Below are positions 22,501 through 28,109 of a DNA stretch of 32,230 bases, in pieces. A program made the translations under genes and the position numbers. The notes under the pieces are model-generated. The model was not told where the DNA came from. It saw only the letters and a program-made list of their open reading frames with translations, and did no database searches. How positions within the stretch are numbered: position 1 is the stretch's first letter; every line of letters begins with the position of its first letter. The stretch is taken from the IMG/VR virus record IMGVR_UViG_3300048925_000615, positions 1 to 32,230 of that record, one strand, 5' to 3'. This DNA is from a virus.

Positions 22501-23112
22501 ATGCTCTGCCTTCCGCCTGCGCTGGTGACACCGCCGGATGGGATGCCGGTCAGCCTCGCGCGGGCGAAGGCGCATCTGCGTGTGGACCATAGCGAGGATG
22601 ACGACCTGATCACGGCGGCCATTGCCGCCGCGGTCAACCATCTCGACGGCTATGGCGGCATTCTCGGCCGGGCGCTAATGCCGCAGACCTGGTGCGAGTA
22701 CGGCGCCTTCTGGCCGGCTTCGCGTGCGATCGAGTTGCGTCTCGCGCCGGTCGCCTCGATCGTCGAGGTGAAGGCGCGCGCCGCCGATGGCGCGGATGTC
22801 GTTCTGGACCCGGTTTTCTATCGGCTGCTTGCCGGCAGGGCCTCACGCCCGATCGTCCTCTTCGGTATCGATGCTGCTTTGCCGGATCTCGCCAAGGCGC
22901 CCGACGCGCTCGCGATCAGCTATGCCGCCGGCTATCCGCTCGATGGCGACGACAAGCCGACCGTGCCGGCCGCGCTCCAGAGCGCCATCCTGCTCATGGT
23001 CGGCGATCTCTACCGCTTCCGCGACAGCGTCCAGATCGGCTCCTCCAGCGCCGTGCCGATGTCGACCACGGTCGACCGGCTGATCGCGCCCTTCCGCCGG
23101 TATCAGATCTGA
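22501..23112 (+). CDS. Head-tail connector protein, gp6-like
   Basis: A 203-residue head-tail connector of the phage gp6 family, which forms the ring below the portal. The family start is clear (VSLARAKAHLRVDHSEDDDLITAAIAAAVNHLDGYGG, about residues 17-53), ending with a helical segment (ALQSAILLMVGDLYRFRDSV). The gene starts 6 nt after the previous one, and its TGA overlaps the next ATG by one base. Confidence 0.88.
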   Translation: MLCLPPALVTPPDGMPVSLARAKAHLRVDHSEDDDLITAAIAAAVNHLDGYGGILGRALMPQTWCEYGAFWPASRAIELRLAPVASIVEVKARAADGADVVLDPVFYRLLAGRASRPIVLFGIDAALPDLAKAPDALAISYAAGYPLDGDDKPTVPAALQSAILLMVGDLYRFRDSVQIGSSSAVPMSTTVDRLIAPFRRYQI

Positions 23113-23677: not shown

Positions 23678-23964
23678 TGCCCCGCGTCACCTTCATCCGA
23701 GATTTCGACTGCCACGCCAAGCCCGGCGTCTTCATCGCCTACAAGGCGGGAGGGCCGAAGCTGATCCCCCAGGCCCATGCCGCGCGCGCCCGCGCCGCCG
23801 GAGTGCTTCTCGATGCCCAGCCCGAAGACTGCAGCCTCGCTGTCGCGCCTGCGCAGGCGCCTGGAGAAGGTACCGCTGCAGGTGCGGGCGGCTGCGGCGG
23901 CGGAAGCGCTGCTGCGGGCGCGGCAGCTCGGCCGCGCGATCCAGTCGGCGGCGCCGAAGGATGA
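23677..23964 (+). CDS. Small tail-region ORF overlapping the gp10-like gene
   Basis: A GTG-started frame of 95 residues. The first ~50 (VTFIRDFDCHAKPGVFIAYKAGG...LIPQAHAARARAAGVL) resemble short conserved proteins placed here in related phages. The rest is Gly/Ala-rich and appears to be only the shadow frame of the next gene, which it overlaps by 152 nt. Either an ancestral stop was lost or the extension is tolerated. No ribosome-binding site is visible, so it probably relies on coupling. Confidence 0.5.
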   Translation: MPRVTFIRDFDCHAKPGVFIAYKAGGPKLIPQAHAARARAAGVLLDAQPEDCSLAVAPAQAPGEGTAAGAGGCGGGSAAAGAAARPRDPVGGAEG

Positions 23965-24229
23965 GGGCAAGTTGAAGGAGTCGGTGCGCATCGAGCCCGG
24001 CAGGTTCGGCGACCGCTTCTATGTGAAGGCCGGCGGCCTCCTCACCACGCGGCCCGTACGCGAGGGCATAAGCGCCACCTATGACTATGCGCTGGCCGTC
24101 GAGCACGGCACGCAGAAGATGAAGGCGCAGCCCTTCTTCTATCCGACCTATCGGCTGCTGCGGAAGGATATCCGCCGCGGCATCATCGACGCGGCGAAAC
24201 GCGCGGCGAAGCTCCAAGGTCCGGCCTGA
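23813..24229 (+). CDS. HK97-gp10-like tail component (tail completion)
   Basis: A 138-residue protein of the HK97-gp10 / minor tail type, probably acting at head-tail joining or tail termination. Features are a basic helical N-terminus (SLSRLRRRLEKVPLQVRAAAAAEAL), the family segment QSAAPKDEGKLKESV and the Y-x-x-x-V-E-H-G motif in YDYALAVEHGTQKMKAQPFFYPTY, then a C-terminal helix. The ATG at 23813 is chosen because the conserved region begins there; ATG 23777 upstream is possible but adds a non-conserved segment. Stop TGA overlaps the next ATG by one base. Confidence 0.85.
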   Translation: MPSPKTAASLSRLRRRLEKVPLQVRAAAAAEALLRARQLGRAIQSAAPKDEGKLKESVRIEPGRFGDRFYVKAGGLLTTRPVREGISATYDYALAVEHGTQKMKAQPFFYPTYRLLRKDIRRGIIDAAKRAAKLQGPA

Positions 24230-24627
24230 TGGGCGACCCGTCGCTCGCCCTGCAGATTGCCATCAATCTGCGCTTGCGGACCGATATCGCCGCCGTCGAC
24301 AGCCGAGTCTTCGATCGTGTGCCCGCCGATGTCGCCTTCCCCTATATCGAGCTGGGCGAGTTCCAGACGCTCGATGACGGGGCGCAGTGCCATGACGGCA
24401 TGGAGGTCTTCGCGACACTCCATGTCTGGTCGCGCGCGATCGGGCAGGTCGAGGTCAAGACGATCGCCGGCGCCGCGCGCGGCTCGATCCATGAGGCCGA
24501 GCTCGATCTCGGCGCCGCCTGGCAGTTCCTCGAAATCGCGCATCAGGACACGCGATATCTGAAAGACCCGGATGGCGTCACCAGCCATGCCGTCCTGACG
24601 TTCAAGGCGCTCGTCGCCGCAGCCTGA
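24229..24627 (+). CDS. DUF3168 tail completion protein (gp11-like)
   Basis: A 132-residue DUF3168 protein, the tail-terminator type that caps the tail tube and joins it to the head. It shows LQIAINLRLRTDIAAV, the RVFDRVPADVAFPYIELGEFQ segment and HVWSRAIGQVEVKTIAGAAR that mark the family. The start overlaps the previous stop as TGATG. Its place, just before the tail tube gene, matches HK97-like and gene-transfer-agent gene order. Confidence 0.9.
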   Translation: MGDPSLALQIAINLRLRTDIAAVDSRVFDRVPADVAFPYIELGEFQTLDDGAQCHDGMEVFATLHVWSRAIGQVEVKTIAGAARGSIHEAELDLGAAWQFLEIAHQDTRYLKDPDGVTSHAVLTFKALVAAA

Positions 24628-24648: not shown

Positions 24649-25116
24649 ATGGCACAGCCGACCGTCCTGCCTTTCGGCAAGGGCCTGTTCTTCCTTGGCG
24701 ACGGCGCGCTCGTCGACGAGGCGTTCCAGAAGATCTGCGGCTTCAACAGCATGTCGCTGCAGATCCAGAAGGACACCAACGACGTCACCATTCCGGATTG
24801 CGACGATCCCGACGCGCCGGCCTGGAAGGCGACGGACGTGCTCAACATGTCCTGGACCATGAGCTTCGAGGGCGTGATGGCGAAGGAGGCCGAGCCTTTG
24901 CTCTGGGCTGGCTCGAATCGCGGCATCTCGACCAATGTGCGTCAGCGCCTGCTCGGCTTCGGCACCGGCGCCGGCACGCCCGATCTCGAATTCTCCGGCA
25001 AAGGCCATGTCTCGCATGAGATCACCGGCCAGCGCGGGAACAAATGGGAGGTCAAGGTCACCGTGGTCGGTGACGGCGCCCTCGCCCGCGCCAGCGTGGC
25101 GGCGCTCGCGCCATGA
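24649..25116 (+). CDS. Major tail tube protein
   Basis: A 155-residue tail tube protein of the gene-transfer-agent type, stacking into hexameric rings around the tape measure. The pattern is FGKGLFFLGDGALVDEAFQKICGFNSMSLQIQKDTNDVTIPDCDDPDAPAWKATDVLNMSW and the C-terminal GNKWEVKVTVVGDG. GGAGG lies five bases before the ATG. The stop overlaps the chaperone start as ATGA. Confidence 0.88.
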   Translation: MAQPTVLPFGKGLFFLGDGALVDEAFQKICGFNSMSLQIQKDTNDVTIPDCDDPDAPAWKATDVLNMSWTMSFEGVMAKEAEPLLWAGSNRGISTNVRQRLLGFGTGAGTPDLEFSGKGHVSHEITGQRGNKWEVKVTVVGDGALARASVAALAP

Positions 25117-25520
25117 GCCGCTGCCGCATCGATCTGGAGTGGGCGGACGGGGTATATCCGTTCTGCCTGCCGCTCGCGCAGCTCGAGGAGCTGCAGACGC
25201 TGTGCGAGGCCGGGCCGCTCGTTATTGCGCGGCGCCTCGAGGCGGGCGAATGGACGCATCGCGACATCTACCAAACGATCCGTCTCGGGCTGATCGGCGG
25301 CGGGATGACGCCGATCGAGGCGATGAGGAAGTGCAAGCTCTACGTGCTGGAGCGGCCCTGGCTCGAAAACATCCCGTGCGCGGTGGCCATCCTGCAGGTC
25401 ACGCTGATCGGAAAGCCGGACGAGCCCGTGGGAAAATCCTCGGCGGTCGAGAGGGAGAGCGATCCGGCCGCCGAGACGGAAAGCTCGATTTCCGCGACAT
25501 CTACGGCTTCGGCGTCGTGA
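25113..25520 (+). CDS. Tail assembly chaperone, short form (gene-transfer-agent-like)
   Basis: A 135-residue protein in the position of lambda gpG: between tail tube and tape measure. The N-terminal ~100 residues match the gene-transfer-agent family tail assembly chaperone (SRCRIDLEWADGVYPFCLPLAQLEELQTLCEAGPLVIARRLEAGEW ... RKCKLYVLERPW). The last ~27 are Ser/Ala/Glu-rich and low complexity, as expected for the non-shifted tail of a frameshift gene. A GGGAAAA slippery heptamer (25430-25436) is in the correct frame near the end of the conserved domain. The long form continues in the -1 frame to 25690. Confidence 0.88.
   Translation: MSRCRIDLEWADGVYPFCLPLAQLEELQTLCEAGPLVIARRLEAGEWTHRDIYQTIRLGLIGGGMTPIEAMRKCKLYVLERPWLENIPCAVAILQVTLIGKPDEPVGKSSAVERESDPAAETESSISATSTASAS
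25430..25475 (+). other. Programmed -1 frameshift signal (GGGAAAA plus stem-loop)
   Basis: The heptamer G-GGA-AAA occupies 25430-25436, with GGA and AAA as zero-frame codons 107 and 108, the arrangement needed for tandem -1 slippage. Two bases downstream an 8-bp perfect stem begins, CTCGGCGG (25439-25446) with CCGCCGAG (25468-25475), extendable inward by one G-U and two G-C pairs. Lambda's tail assembly frameshift uses the related GGGAAAG. The gap to the stem is shorter than typical. Confidence 0.7.
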
Positions 25521-25690
25521 TGGGATTCACGCCCGAGCAGGTCGGGCGGATGTCGCTTTGGCAGTTCTTCGCCTGCGGCGATGGTTGGGCACGAGCGAAC
25601 GTGCCGGAGGCGGGCTCCCGCTCCAATGACGATGCCGATTACAGTGAGATCGAGGCCATCCTCGACGCTGCGCCGGACTTCATCTCCTAG
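25436..25690 (+). CDS. Tail assembly chaperone, -1 frame extension (gpGT-like T domain)
   Basis: This is the -1 frame reading of the chaperone locus, giving 84 residues after slippage and a 192-residue fusion in total. The section GKLDFRDIYGFGVVMGFTPEQVGRMSLWQFFACGDGW resembles phage tail assembly chaperone C-terminal domains, and the protein-like pattern begins before the ATG at 25520. That favours production by frameshifting. Alternatively the ATG at 25520, overlapping the short form's stop (TGATG), could start a separate 56-residue protein, as in gene transfer agents where the two chaperones are separate. The two are not exclusive. Confidence 0.7.
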   Translation: MLGGREGERSGRRDGKLDFRDIYGFGVVMGFTPEQVGRMSLWQFFACGDGWARANVPEAGSRSNDDADYSEIEAILDAAPDFIS

Positions 25691-26148
25691 ACGGGCGAAG
25701 CTCGCTCCGCGCTCGTGGCATGGCAGCCAACGCGATCGGCCTCCTGATCGACGAAGCCGAAGTTGATCTCACGCACGGTGACTGCCTTCTTGGGCGGAAA
25801 CTCCCGATAGGCCGTTCGGCTGGCTTGGCCGACCTTAGTGCCGCTGCGACCGAAGAATTCGCAGAGGATGACGGCGTCCTTCAGCCAGATGTCCGATGTG
25901 TTTCGCACGGTCAGCGTCAGAACAGCGACGCTGCTCATGCGCGACGCCTTGCCTTGGACCTTCATCTCAAGGTGGTCGGCGAGGCGCATCGATTCTGGAA
26001 TGACCGTGGGAGTCTGCGCCTGGGCAGGGGCAAATGCCGGGGCCCGACTCTGGCTGTTGGATGGCTGTCGGTCGATGGATGCAACAATGCCGATCAGGCC
26101 AAGAAAGCCGATGCAAAGCCATCCGATAAGCTTGGCGATCATCCCCAT
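25687..26148 (-). CDS. Membrane-anchored or exported accessory protein (moron) within the tail operon
   Basis: A 153-residue protein on the opposite strand, inserted between the chaperone and tape measure genes. The N-terminus has a signal/anchor-like hydrophobic stretch (about residues 4-24, IAKLIGWLCIGFLGLIGIVAS) followed by an Ala/Pro/Gln linker. A beta-rich domain follows (VAVLTLTVRNTSDIWLKDAVILCEFF, then AVTVREINFGFVDQ) with two cysteines, similar in style to small extracellular or periplasmic beta-sandwich proteins. Its stop shares CTAG with the chaperone's stop. It has lower GC than its neighbours. A role at the host envelope during lysogeny is inferred; no family is recognised. Confidence 0.8.
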   Translation of the reverse strand: MGMIAKLIGWLCIGFLGLIGIVASIDRQPSNSQSRAPAFAPAQAQTPTVIPESMRLADHLEMKVQGKASRMSSVAVLTLTVRNTSDIWLKDAVILCEFFGRSGTKVGQASRTAYREFPPKKAVTVREINFGFVDQEADRVGCHATSAERASPV

Positions 26149-26210
26149 TGCATCACCCGTCCGCCCCGTGCGGACCACCAATCCAACACAATTCCCTCCG
26201 GAACAAGCCC

Positions 26211-28109
26211 ATGAGCAATGATCTCGTCATCAGCGTCGGCGGCTCTATCCGCGATCTTGAGCGGCAACTGAAGTCAGCCGCTGACGTCGCGGCTCAACGT
26301 GCCGATGAGATCGAGAATGAGTTCAAGCGACGCAATCCGTCCTTTGCAGGTGATTTCGGGCTAGGAGTCCTGAAAGGTGCGATCGCGGCCCTCTCCTTCG
26401 AAAAGATCGTCAGCGGCATCGCCGCCGCCACCCGGGAGATCGCCTCCTTCGCCGATACCGCCCGCCGCGCCGGCATCGAGGTGGAACGCCTGCAGTCGTT
26501 GCGGCTCGCGGCGGGAGCCAAAGGCGTTGAGGGCAAGACCTTCGATGCTGGCGTCGAGGGCTTGGCCAAAGCACTCAACGACACGAAGAACGGCGAAAAT
26601 GAGCTGTCCAAGCTGCTCGACGCGAATGGCATCAAGTACAAGGACCGCAAGGGCGACATCATCTCGACCAATGAAGCCTTGGCCGTCGCCGCCGATCTGA
26701 TTTCGCGCGCAGCCTCTGAGCAGGACAAGATCGCCATCGCCGAAAAGCTCGGCATCCCGAGGGATTTCGTCCCTTTGCTGGAGGGCGGCGCGGATGCGCT
26801 GAATCGCTTGGCGGAGGAGGCCAGTAAGGCCGGAGTCATCCTCGACGCCGACGTCGTTCGTCGCGCGAAGGAGTTCGACGACGCTTGGAGCGCGGCCTGG
26901 AGCAGCTTTGTCACGAACACGAAGGCTTCTGTCGCTGAAGCCGCGACCGGCTTGGCAGGGCTGATCAAGCAGGCGATCGAGCTGCAGCAACGCGTCGAGA
27001 CCGCGCGGGGGGCGGGCTCGGCTCTTGGTAAGACGATCGCGACGCTGGCGGCAGGCGGAGAGCCGACAACCGCTCCGCTTCCCCCGGCCCGCCCCGATGG
27101 CACGCCCACCAATGCCCCGCTTCCGCCTGCGCGGCCCGGTCGAGGCCACATCGGTTCCGATGTGACGCGCATTCCCGCTTCAAAATCCGGCGGCGGGGGC
27201 GGTGGCGGCAAGTCCGAGGAGGAGCAGGCGCAGGATCGGCTCGACCGTTATATCGAGACGCTGATGCGCCAGAATTCGGTGCTCGACGCGCAGATCGCCA
27301 CCTTCGGCCGCTCCAATGCCGAGAAGCGCGCCGCGGTCGAGTTGGCGAAGGCGCAGGTCGATCTCGGCAAGCTCGACGAGGATTCGCGCGCCAAGGTCAT
27401 CGCCAGCCTGACGAAGGAGATCCAGCTTTCCGAGCAGAAGCGGACGCAGCTCGAAAGCCTGAAGCAGACGCAGAAGGGCCTCGTCGACGCGCAGAAGTTC
27501 TTCGGCGAAGCGGTGACCGACGGTCTGACCGACATGATCGTCAACGGTGCCAAGGCGCAGGACGTGCTGAAGAACCTGACCGCGACGCTGATCAAGGCGA
27601 CGCTGCAGGCGGCCCTGCTCGGCAACGGGCCGCTCGCCGGCATCTTCGGCACCGCCGGGACCAACGGCAATCTCGGCGGCATCTTCGGGCTGCTCGGCGG
27701 GCTGAAATTCGCCTCGGGCGGCTTCGTCTCCGGGCCGGGCTCGAACCGCAGCGATTCCGTGCCCGCGCGGCTCTCCAATGGGGAGTTCGTCGTCAATGCC
27801 GGCGCCACCCGCAAGCATCGCGACCTGCTCGAGGCGATCAACAATGGCCGCGTGCCGATGATGGCGGCGGGTGGCCTAGTCGGGAGCCTGCCGGCGATCG
27901 CGCCGCGTGCCGGCTCTGGCGGTGGCCTCATCGTCAATGTGCAGAACAACACGCCGGCGCAGGTCGAGACCAAGCCGCGCAGCGACGGGGGCGTCGATAT
28001 GATCATCCGGCAGGTCGAGGGCGCGATGGCGCAGCGCTTCGTGCGCGGGCAAGGCTCGCTCTCGCAGGCCTTCGGCGCCGTGCAGAACGGCCGGCAGTAC
28101 CGGGGCTGA
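26211..28109 (+). CDS. Tail tape measure protein
   Basis: A 632-residue tape measure protein, which sets tail length and probably takes part in DNA delivery. The N-terminal half is helical (LERQLKSAADVAAQRADEIEN), then a Pro-rich linker (PPARPDGTPT...) and a Gly-rich stretch (SGGGGGGG) near residue 325-335. A coiled-coil region follows, and the C-terminal part has the typical FASGGFVSGPGSNRSDSVPARLSNGEFVVNA motif (about residues 500-530). The ATG at 26211 is chosen because the tape-measure sequence begins there; only a weak GGA lies upstream, and the preceding gap holds the accessory gene's promoter region. Confidence 0.92.
   Translation: MSNDLVISVGGSIRDLERQLKSAADVAAQRADEIENEFKRRNPSFAGDFGLGVLKGAIAALSFEKIVSGIAAATREIASFADTARRAGIEVERLQSLRLAAGAKGVEGKTFDAGVEGLAKALNDTKNGENELSKLLDANGIKYKDRKGDIISTNEALAVAADLISRAASEQDKIAIAEKLGIPRDFVPLLEGGADALNRLAEEASKAGVILDADVVRRAKEFDDAWSAAWSSFVTNTKASVAEAATGLAGLIKQAIELQQRVETARGAGSALGKTIATLAAGGEPTTAPLPPARPDGTPTNAPLPPARPGRGHIGSDVTRIPASKSGGGGGGGKSEEEQAQDRLDRYIETLMRQNSVLDAQIATFGRSNAEKRAAVELAKAQVDLGKLDEDSRAKVIASLTKEIQLSEQKRTQLESLKQTQKGLVDAQKFFGEAVTDGLTDMIVNGAKAQDVLKNLTATLIKATLQAALLGNGPLAGIFGTAGTNGNLGGIFGLLGGLKFASGGFVSGPGSNRSDSVPARLSNGEFVVNAGATRKHRDLLEAINNGRVPMMAAGGLVGSLPAIAPRAGSGGGLIVNVQNNTPAQVETKPRSDGGVDMIIRQVEGAMAQRFVRGQGSLSQAFGAVQNGRQYRG

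Follow-up and report, generated by a model that had tools for sequence, protein, structure and literature searches.

Here, we asked whether a tail gene that closes in one reading frame is continued in another by programmed ribosomal frameshifting. The gene lies in the window, the whole stretch of 32,230 nt that we analysed (one strand, positions 1-32,230 of IMG/VR virus record IMGVR_UViG_3300048925_000615). The genes around it follow the usual siphovirus order, with a head-tail connector gene (22501-23112), a tail-completion-like gene (23777-24229), a tail terminator gene (24229-24627) and the gene for the major tail (tube) protein (24649-25116, plus strand; Pfam PF06199, 1.9e-7; PHROG 13196) on its upstream side and the tape measure protein gene (26148-28109, plus strand, start probably near 26211; PHROG 25241, 1.3e-43) on its downstream side. 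The open reading frame (ORF) between the tail tube and tape measure genes, at 25113-25520 on the plus strand, matches Pfam PF11836, Phage_TAC_11 (GTA-gp10, the family of RcGTA g10), at 3.8e-21 (75.4 bits against a cut-off of 27.8), and PHROG 8985 at 1.8e-38. We conclude that this is very probably a tail assembly chaperone gene of the GTA-g10 type with a programmed -1 frameshift of the lambda G/GT kind, as the original prediction had it and as both the slip site and the conservation of the -1 frame support. Comparison with relatives establishes the anatomy of the site, its conservation, a covarying stem, coding in the -1 frame upstream of an internal ATG and the existence of natural in-frame fusions.

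Read directly, the 0-frame codons at the candidate slip site are GTG GGA AAA TCC, with G at 25430, GGA at 25431-25433 and AAA at 25434-25436, so that the plus-strand heptamer GGGAAAA at 25430-25436 fits the X_XXY_YYZ phase as G_GGA_AAA. The 0 frame closes with the TGA at 25518-25520, and the -1 frame continues as far as TAG 25688-25690; a slip would therefore add an extension of 84 codons plus TAG (25436-25690, plus strand), and the predicted fusion of 192 aa would consist of 108 residues from the 0 frame followed by 84 read from 25436. The phase of the heptamer, the stem downstream of it and the end of the -1 frame at 25690 all proved correct as originally given. Past the heptamer, the first ATG, GTG or TTG of the -1 frame is GTG 25517, followed by ATG 25520, which overlaps the 0-frame stop as TGATG (25518-25522, plus strand) and is a possible re-initiation start that is not conserved. 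Upstream of the heptamer, we found no clear Shine-Dalgarno-like stimulator. The codons of the site are uncommon ones, GGA accounting for 6 of 167 Gly codons and AAA for 10 of 75 Lys codons in the structural genes of the window. The heptamer is identical in the 10 closest relatives, among which GTG GGA AAA is invariant, and 31 of the 37 columns with an invariant residue vary in their codon. The segment 25437-25520 is dual coding, in that it also encodes a 28-codon 0-frame tail whose length is constant, and whose sequence is similar, among close relatives; in other relatives (loci L079 and L041) the tail downstream of the slip site is shorter or different. The sole other in-phase canonical heptamer in the structural genes of the window that we examined is CCCTTTG at 26771-26777, within the tape measure gene, and it probably occurs there by chance.

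Relatives were drawn from annotated phage records, IMG/VR contigs and GTDB genomes, and 150 related loci in which a chaperone domain and a -1 domain occur together were compared. The second part lies in the -1 frame relative to the first in 147 of these and in the same frame in 3, and the +1 relation does not occur; merely overlapping genes are not expected to hold one frame relation so strictly. Removal of identical copies left 128 distinct -1 loci, in which slip motifs were scored from -9 to +27 nt relative to the end of the chaperone (TAC) domain. Every one of the 128 carries a slip motif at this fixed place, 43 of them a canonical heptamer (GGGAAAA in 21, GGGAAAG, GGGAAAC, AAAAAAG and AAAAAAA in 5 each, GGGAAAT and CCCAAAA in 1 each) and 85 a run of G followed by AG or AA (GGGGGAG in 76, GGGGGAA in 9). 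The background rate in the gene bodies is 23 motifs over 12,116 codons, which gives an expectation of 2.3% per 12-codon window. The overlap between the frames shrinks to 13 nt at three loci (L041, L049 and L061), where the slip motif is the sole candidate. Loss of the heptamer in close relatives would have spoken against a programmed slip; GGGAAAA is instead kept in all 10, and conservation of a slip motif reaches well beyond them, to the full set of distinct -1 loci.

The type of motif is itself labile. Labelled as canonical or GGGGGAR, it changes about 16 times on a tree of the chaperone domain, which was built on 109 columns and is uncertain in its deep forks, and 8-9 of these changes are forced by well-supported branches. 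That GGGAAAA/G/C, AAAAAAG and GGGGGAG/A have replaced one another in place is difficult to account for without selection for slipping. The G-run motifs take the place of a canonical heptamer at loci such as L041, L049, L014, L017 and L032, and slipping on GGGGGAG would leave the A-site tRNA with a G:U pair in the middle of its codon. That GGGGGAG/A, the motif of most relatives, is not a classical heptamer counts against the frameshift reading. The three in-frame loci are natural fusions of 187-190 aa, near the predicted 192 aa, and have lost the slip motif; they represent two independent events, one in Rhizobium phage RHph_X2_26 and the other in L118 and L125.

The heptamer is followed by a stem-loop on the plus strand, with its 5' arm CTCGGCGG at 25439-25446 and its 3' arm CCGCCGAG at 25468-25475. 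As originally described, the 8-bp stem is perfect and begins two bases past the heptamer in the window; what relatives retain of it is a 5-bp core (25442-25446 with 25468-25472), paired in 9 of 9 close relatives with one exchange of G-C for C-G. Between the heptamer and this core lies a spacer of ordinary length, 5 nt, and the three outer pairs, from which the 2-nt spacer arises, are mostly specific to the window. Over 13 stem pairs in these nine relatives, 79.5% of cells are paired compared with 35-46% in slid controls, an excess that is partly expected because one of the compared sequences supplied the structure; 6 of the 13 pairs have changed on both sides.

The -1 frame contains a conserved domain, hereafter the T domain (GKLDFRDIYGFGVVMGFTPEQVGRMSLWQFFACGDGWARAN; 25478-25600, plus strand; pattern GK.DFR.[IF]YG.G..MGFTP...), whose 3' part matches PHROG 18467 at 2.1e-10 and whose onset lies 14 codons upstream of the Met encoded by ATG 25520. 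At -1-frame codon positions 1, 2 and 3, the mean entropies upstream of this Met (0.85, 0.76 and 1.53) match those downstream of it (0.79, 0.65 and 1.44); conservation of the -1 frame upstream of 25520, on which the original prediction had staked itself, is thus evident both from the codon positions and from the early onset of the domain. In 83 of the 128 loci the -1 ORF contains no ATG, GTG or TTG before Val14/Met15, so that, barring an unusual start codon, the residues upstream of the Met can be reached only by a shift from the upstream frame. The PHROG 18467 model starts at Met 25520. Small coding sequences in L012, L014 and L017 are likewise called from at or near this Met and lose the first conserved residues. 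Both are probably artefacts of annotation, cut at the first start codon because the frameshift was missed, and, given the conservation upstream of the Met, we reject the reading of the small downstream ORF as an independent gene. The -1 part had no match above the curated cut-off in Pfam, including PF09550 (Phage_TAC_6). Profile comparison of the T domain with g10.1 (PF09550) gave a remote relationship, at a probability of 86% and a local E of 4.7e-6 for a single comparison.

Could the downstream part simply be a second gene, translated from ATG 25520 by termination-reinitiation at TGATG? The overlap in the window and the small ORF annotated at or near Met 25520, in PHROG 18467 and in several records, speak for such an arrangement, yet we regard it as very unlikely: codon-position bias is undiminished over the 14 codons by which the conserved domain precedes the Met, 16 of 128 relatives have Ile, Leu or Val in place of the Met, the 0-frame stop overlaps its site in just 28 of 128 loci, in-frame fusions exist, and re-initiation leaves the slippery heptamer in every locus unexplained. 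The same counts bear on the idea, raised by the original prediction, of an intermediate that uses both modes, making a free short T product from ATG 25520 in addition to the frameshift fusion. Extra re-initiation at TGATG may occur in this lineage, and 28 loci do have a stop at this place; against this, any -1 frame that encodes Val-Met creates the overlap automatically, no Shine-Dalgarno sequence is apparent by eye upstream of 25520, and re-initiation is not a conserved feature of the family. We consider the dual arrangement unlikely.

A fusion could also arise if the polymerase, rather than the ribosome, slipped, and runs of 7-9 A in some relatives (L009, L015, L016, L068 and L143) would suit such an event. 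The window and most relatives, however, have only AAAA or GGGGG, runs that are probably too short for efficient polymerase slippage. The shift is also to -1 without exception, in the codon phase expected of tandem tRNA slippage, and we regard transcriptional slippage as an extremely improbable source of the fusion. That the frames are joined in three relatives might instead suggest that the gene truly has a single frame, broken in the other records by faulty sequencing or assembly, but the same -1 relation and slip motif recur in 147 records from isolates, genomes and metagenomes, and the chance of such an error is negligible.

Under the programmed -1 frameshift that we favour, most ribosomes would read 25113-25520 and release a short chaperone of 135 aa, the N-terminal, or G, part. 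A minority would slip back one base on G_GGA_AAA, where the tRNAs on GGA and AAA would re-pair with GGG and AAA and the stem-loop just downstream would hold the ribosome. After the slip, translation would continue in the -1 frame to 25690 and yield the 192-aa fusion, whose extra C-terminal domain would correspond to the T part of GT. That slipping occurs, and at what rate, we infer from the sequence. By analogy with lambda, the short and long forms would together coat the tape measure protein, the long form would recruit tail tube subunits, and the slip rate would set the ratio of short to long chaperone; the chaperone function and the importance of the ratio are taken over from that analogy, and the position, family and two-product design of the gene point to a chaperone of the tape measure protein. 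The PHROG and Pfam annotations name the N-terminal part "tail tube protein", in our view a mislabel, since the gene for the tail tube lies upstream and g10 is named tail chaperone 1 in PMC11409702. An AlphaFold2 model of a natural fusion, computed from the fusion and N-terminal rows, reached a mean pLDDT of 76.5, with a confidently predicted N-terminal domain, a predicted disordered linker at the slip site and a less confident helical C-terminal domain. Searched against predicted viral proteins, the model hit, among others, a tail assembly chaperone at E 4.6e-4 and N15 GT at no better than E 0.1, and the PDB yielded no match by either sequence or fold.

Frameshifting in tail chaperones is textbook matter (PMC5009743), and the -1 frameshift of lambda G/GT at GGGAAAG, with its counterparts in other tailed phages, is credited there to Xu, Hendrix and Duda (2004). 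As in lambda, the gene studied here sits between the tail tube and tape measure genes, the shift is in the -1 direction, a GGGAAA-type heptamer lies near the end of the short ORF and the C-terminal extension is in the -1 frame. It differs in that its N-terminal part belongs to Phage_TAC_11, the GTA-g10 family, and not to the lambda G family, and in that its heptamer is GGGAAAA with a stem-loop downstream, most relatives having GGGGGAG/A. A "fivetwo" slippery site, GGGGGAA, has been described in tail assembly chaperones of actinophages (PRFect, PMC10274946; corynephage phi16, PMC5506516). The 85 relatives with G-run motifs have the same kind of non-canonical heptamer, but theirs is mainly GGGGGAG, they are phages of alphaproteobacteria, and the heptamer of the window itself is a different one. 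In RcGTA, g10 and g10.5 (also called g10.1) are tail chaperones 1 and 2 (PMC11409702), g10 belonging to PF11836 like the N-terminal part in the window and g10.1 being the family to which the T domain aligns remotely. In phage relatives of RcGTA, including Rhizobium phage 16-3, the two parts are treated as two genes and frameshifting is not mentioned (PMC11409702); a survey of Rhodobacter capsulatus phages does note a frameshift in most of its phages. Our searches, covering mostly open-access literature, found no description of frameshifting in gene transfer agents (GTAs) or in Phage_TAC_11. Measured against the open-access literature, the family-wide record, the GGGGGAG class and the extension to GTAs would be new to a specialist. 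The history of a single recoding site is unusually clear in this comparative set, with slippery sequences, the under-studied GGGGGAG among them, replacing one another repeatedly at a fixed place.

The lambda counterpart of the long chaperone is essential. The long chaperone is missing from databases for the whole Phage_TAC_11 family, and the expectation that annotation pipelines would usually lose the long product was borne out, as annotators show a "tail tube protein" with a stray small ORF, or nothing.

To ask how far this architecture extends, we collected GTA loci of Rhodobacteraceae and Hyphomicrobiales from PF11836 searches of whole genomes. In Rhodobacteraceae GTAs, g10.1 stands in the +1, -1 or 0 relation to g10; at 30 of 31 loci it is, unlike the T domain of the window, a separate gene that has a start codon of its own. 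The other 92 GTA loci come almost entirely from Hyphomicrobiales. In 42 of them g10.1 occupies the -1 frame and lacks any start codon within 70 nt of the stop of g10; in 32 of these 42, the -1 ORF has none at all before the g10.1 domain. The original assumption that GTA relatives use two separate genes thus holds for the Rhodobacteraceae GTAs examined but not for those of Hyphomicrobiales, many of which have a -1 g10.1 that lacks a start. At the 33 strict no-start loci of both groups, a canonical heptamer is present in 26 compared with 10 expected from synonymous shuffling; at the 56 -1 loci with a start, it is present in 12 compared with 7.6 expected. In six GTA loci g10 ends in G_GGA_AAG with the stop directly after, and A_AAC_CCT is found in many. 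One of the startless loci, L283, is a full RcGTA-like cluster (portal, capsid, DUF2460, NlpC/P60 and GTA_TIM) in which g10 ends ...CCG GGA AAG TAA and g10.1 (PF09550, 1.4e-16) lies in the -1 frame with no start before its domain. Further startless -1 copies occur among L153-L282, and the clearest cases are L283 (8687-9295), L227, L259, L262 and L274.

These data are good evidence that GTAs of Hyphomicrobiales also frameshift between g10 and g10.1, albeit weaker than that from the phages: TTTCCCT and similar motifs overlap the codons for the FPW motif itself, and nine no-start loci have no heptamer. Taken together, we think it likely that Hyphomicrobiales GTAs make g10-g10.1 as a programmed -1 fusion like their phage relatives, that the two-gene layout of RcGTA is derived, and that one architecture spans phages and GTAs with its slippery sequence (GGGAAAR, AAAAAAG, GGGGGAG, AAACCCT or TTTCCCT) swapped in place many times. 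If the extension to GTAs is true, some gene transfer agents depend on ribosomal frameshifting, and the g10.1 that appears to be "missing" from many GTA clusters would be explained.

Two further observations concern the chaperone genes and their surroundings. L016 (Nostoc phage Nsp-JY10) is a cyanobacterial phage according to its record, yet it carries an otherwise alphaproteobacterial chaperone pair, and its host assignment, or an origin from co-culture, may deserve a check. In the window, a possible gene with an N-terminal membrane-like stretch lies on the minus strand at 25687-26181, between the chaperone and tape measure genes; it has no match in Pfam, and its relatives occupy the same place in L023 and L079 (59-72% identity). 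Other minus-strand ORFs are annotated between the chaperone and tape measure genes in L012, L014, L020, L021 and L022.
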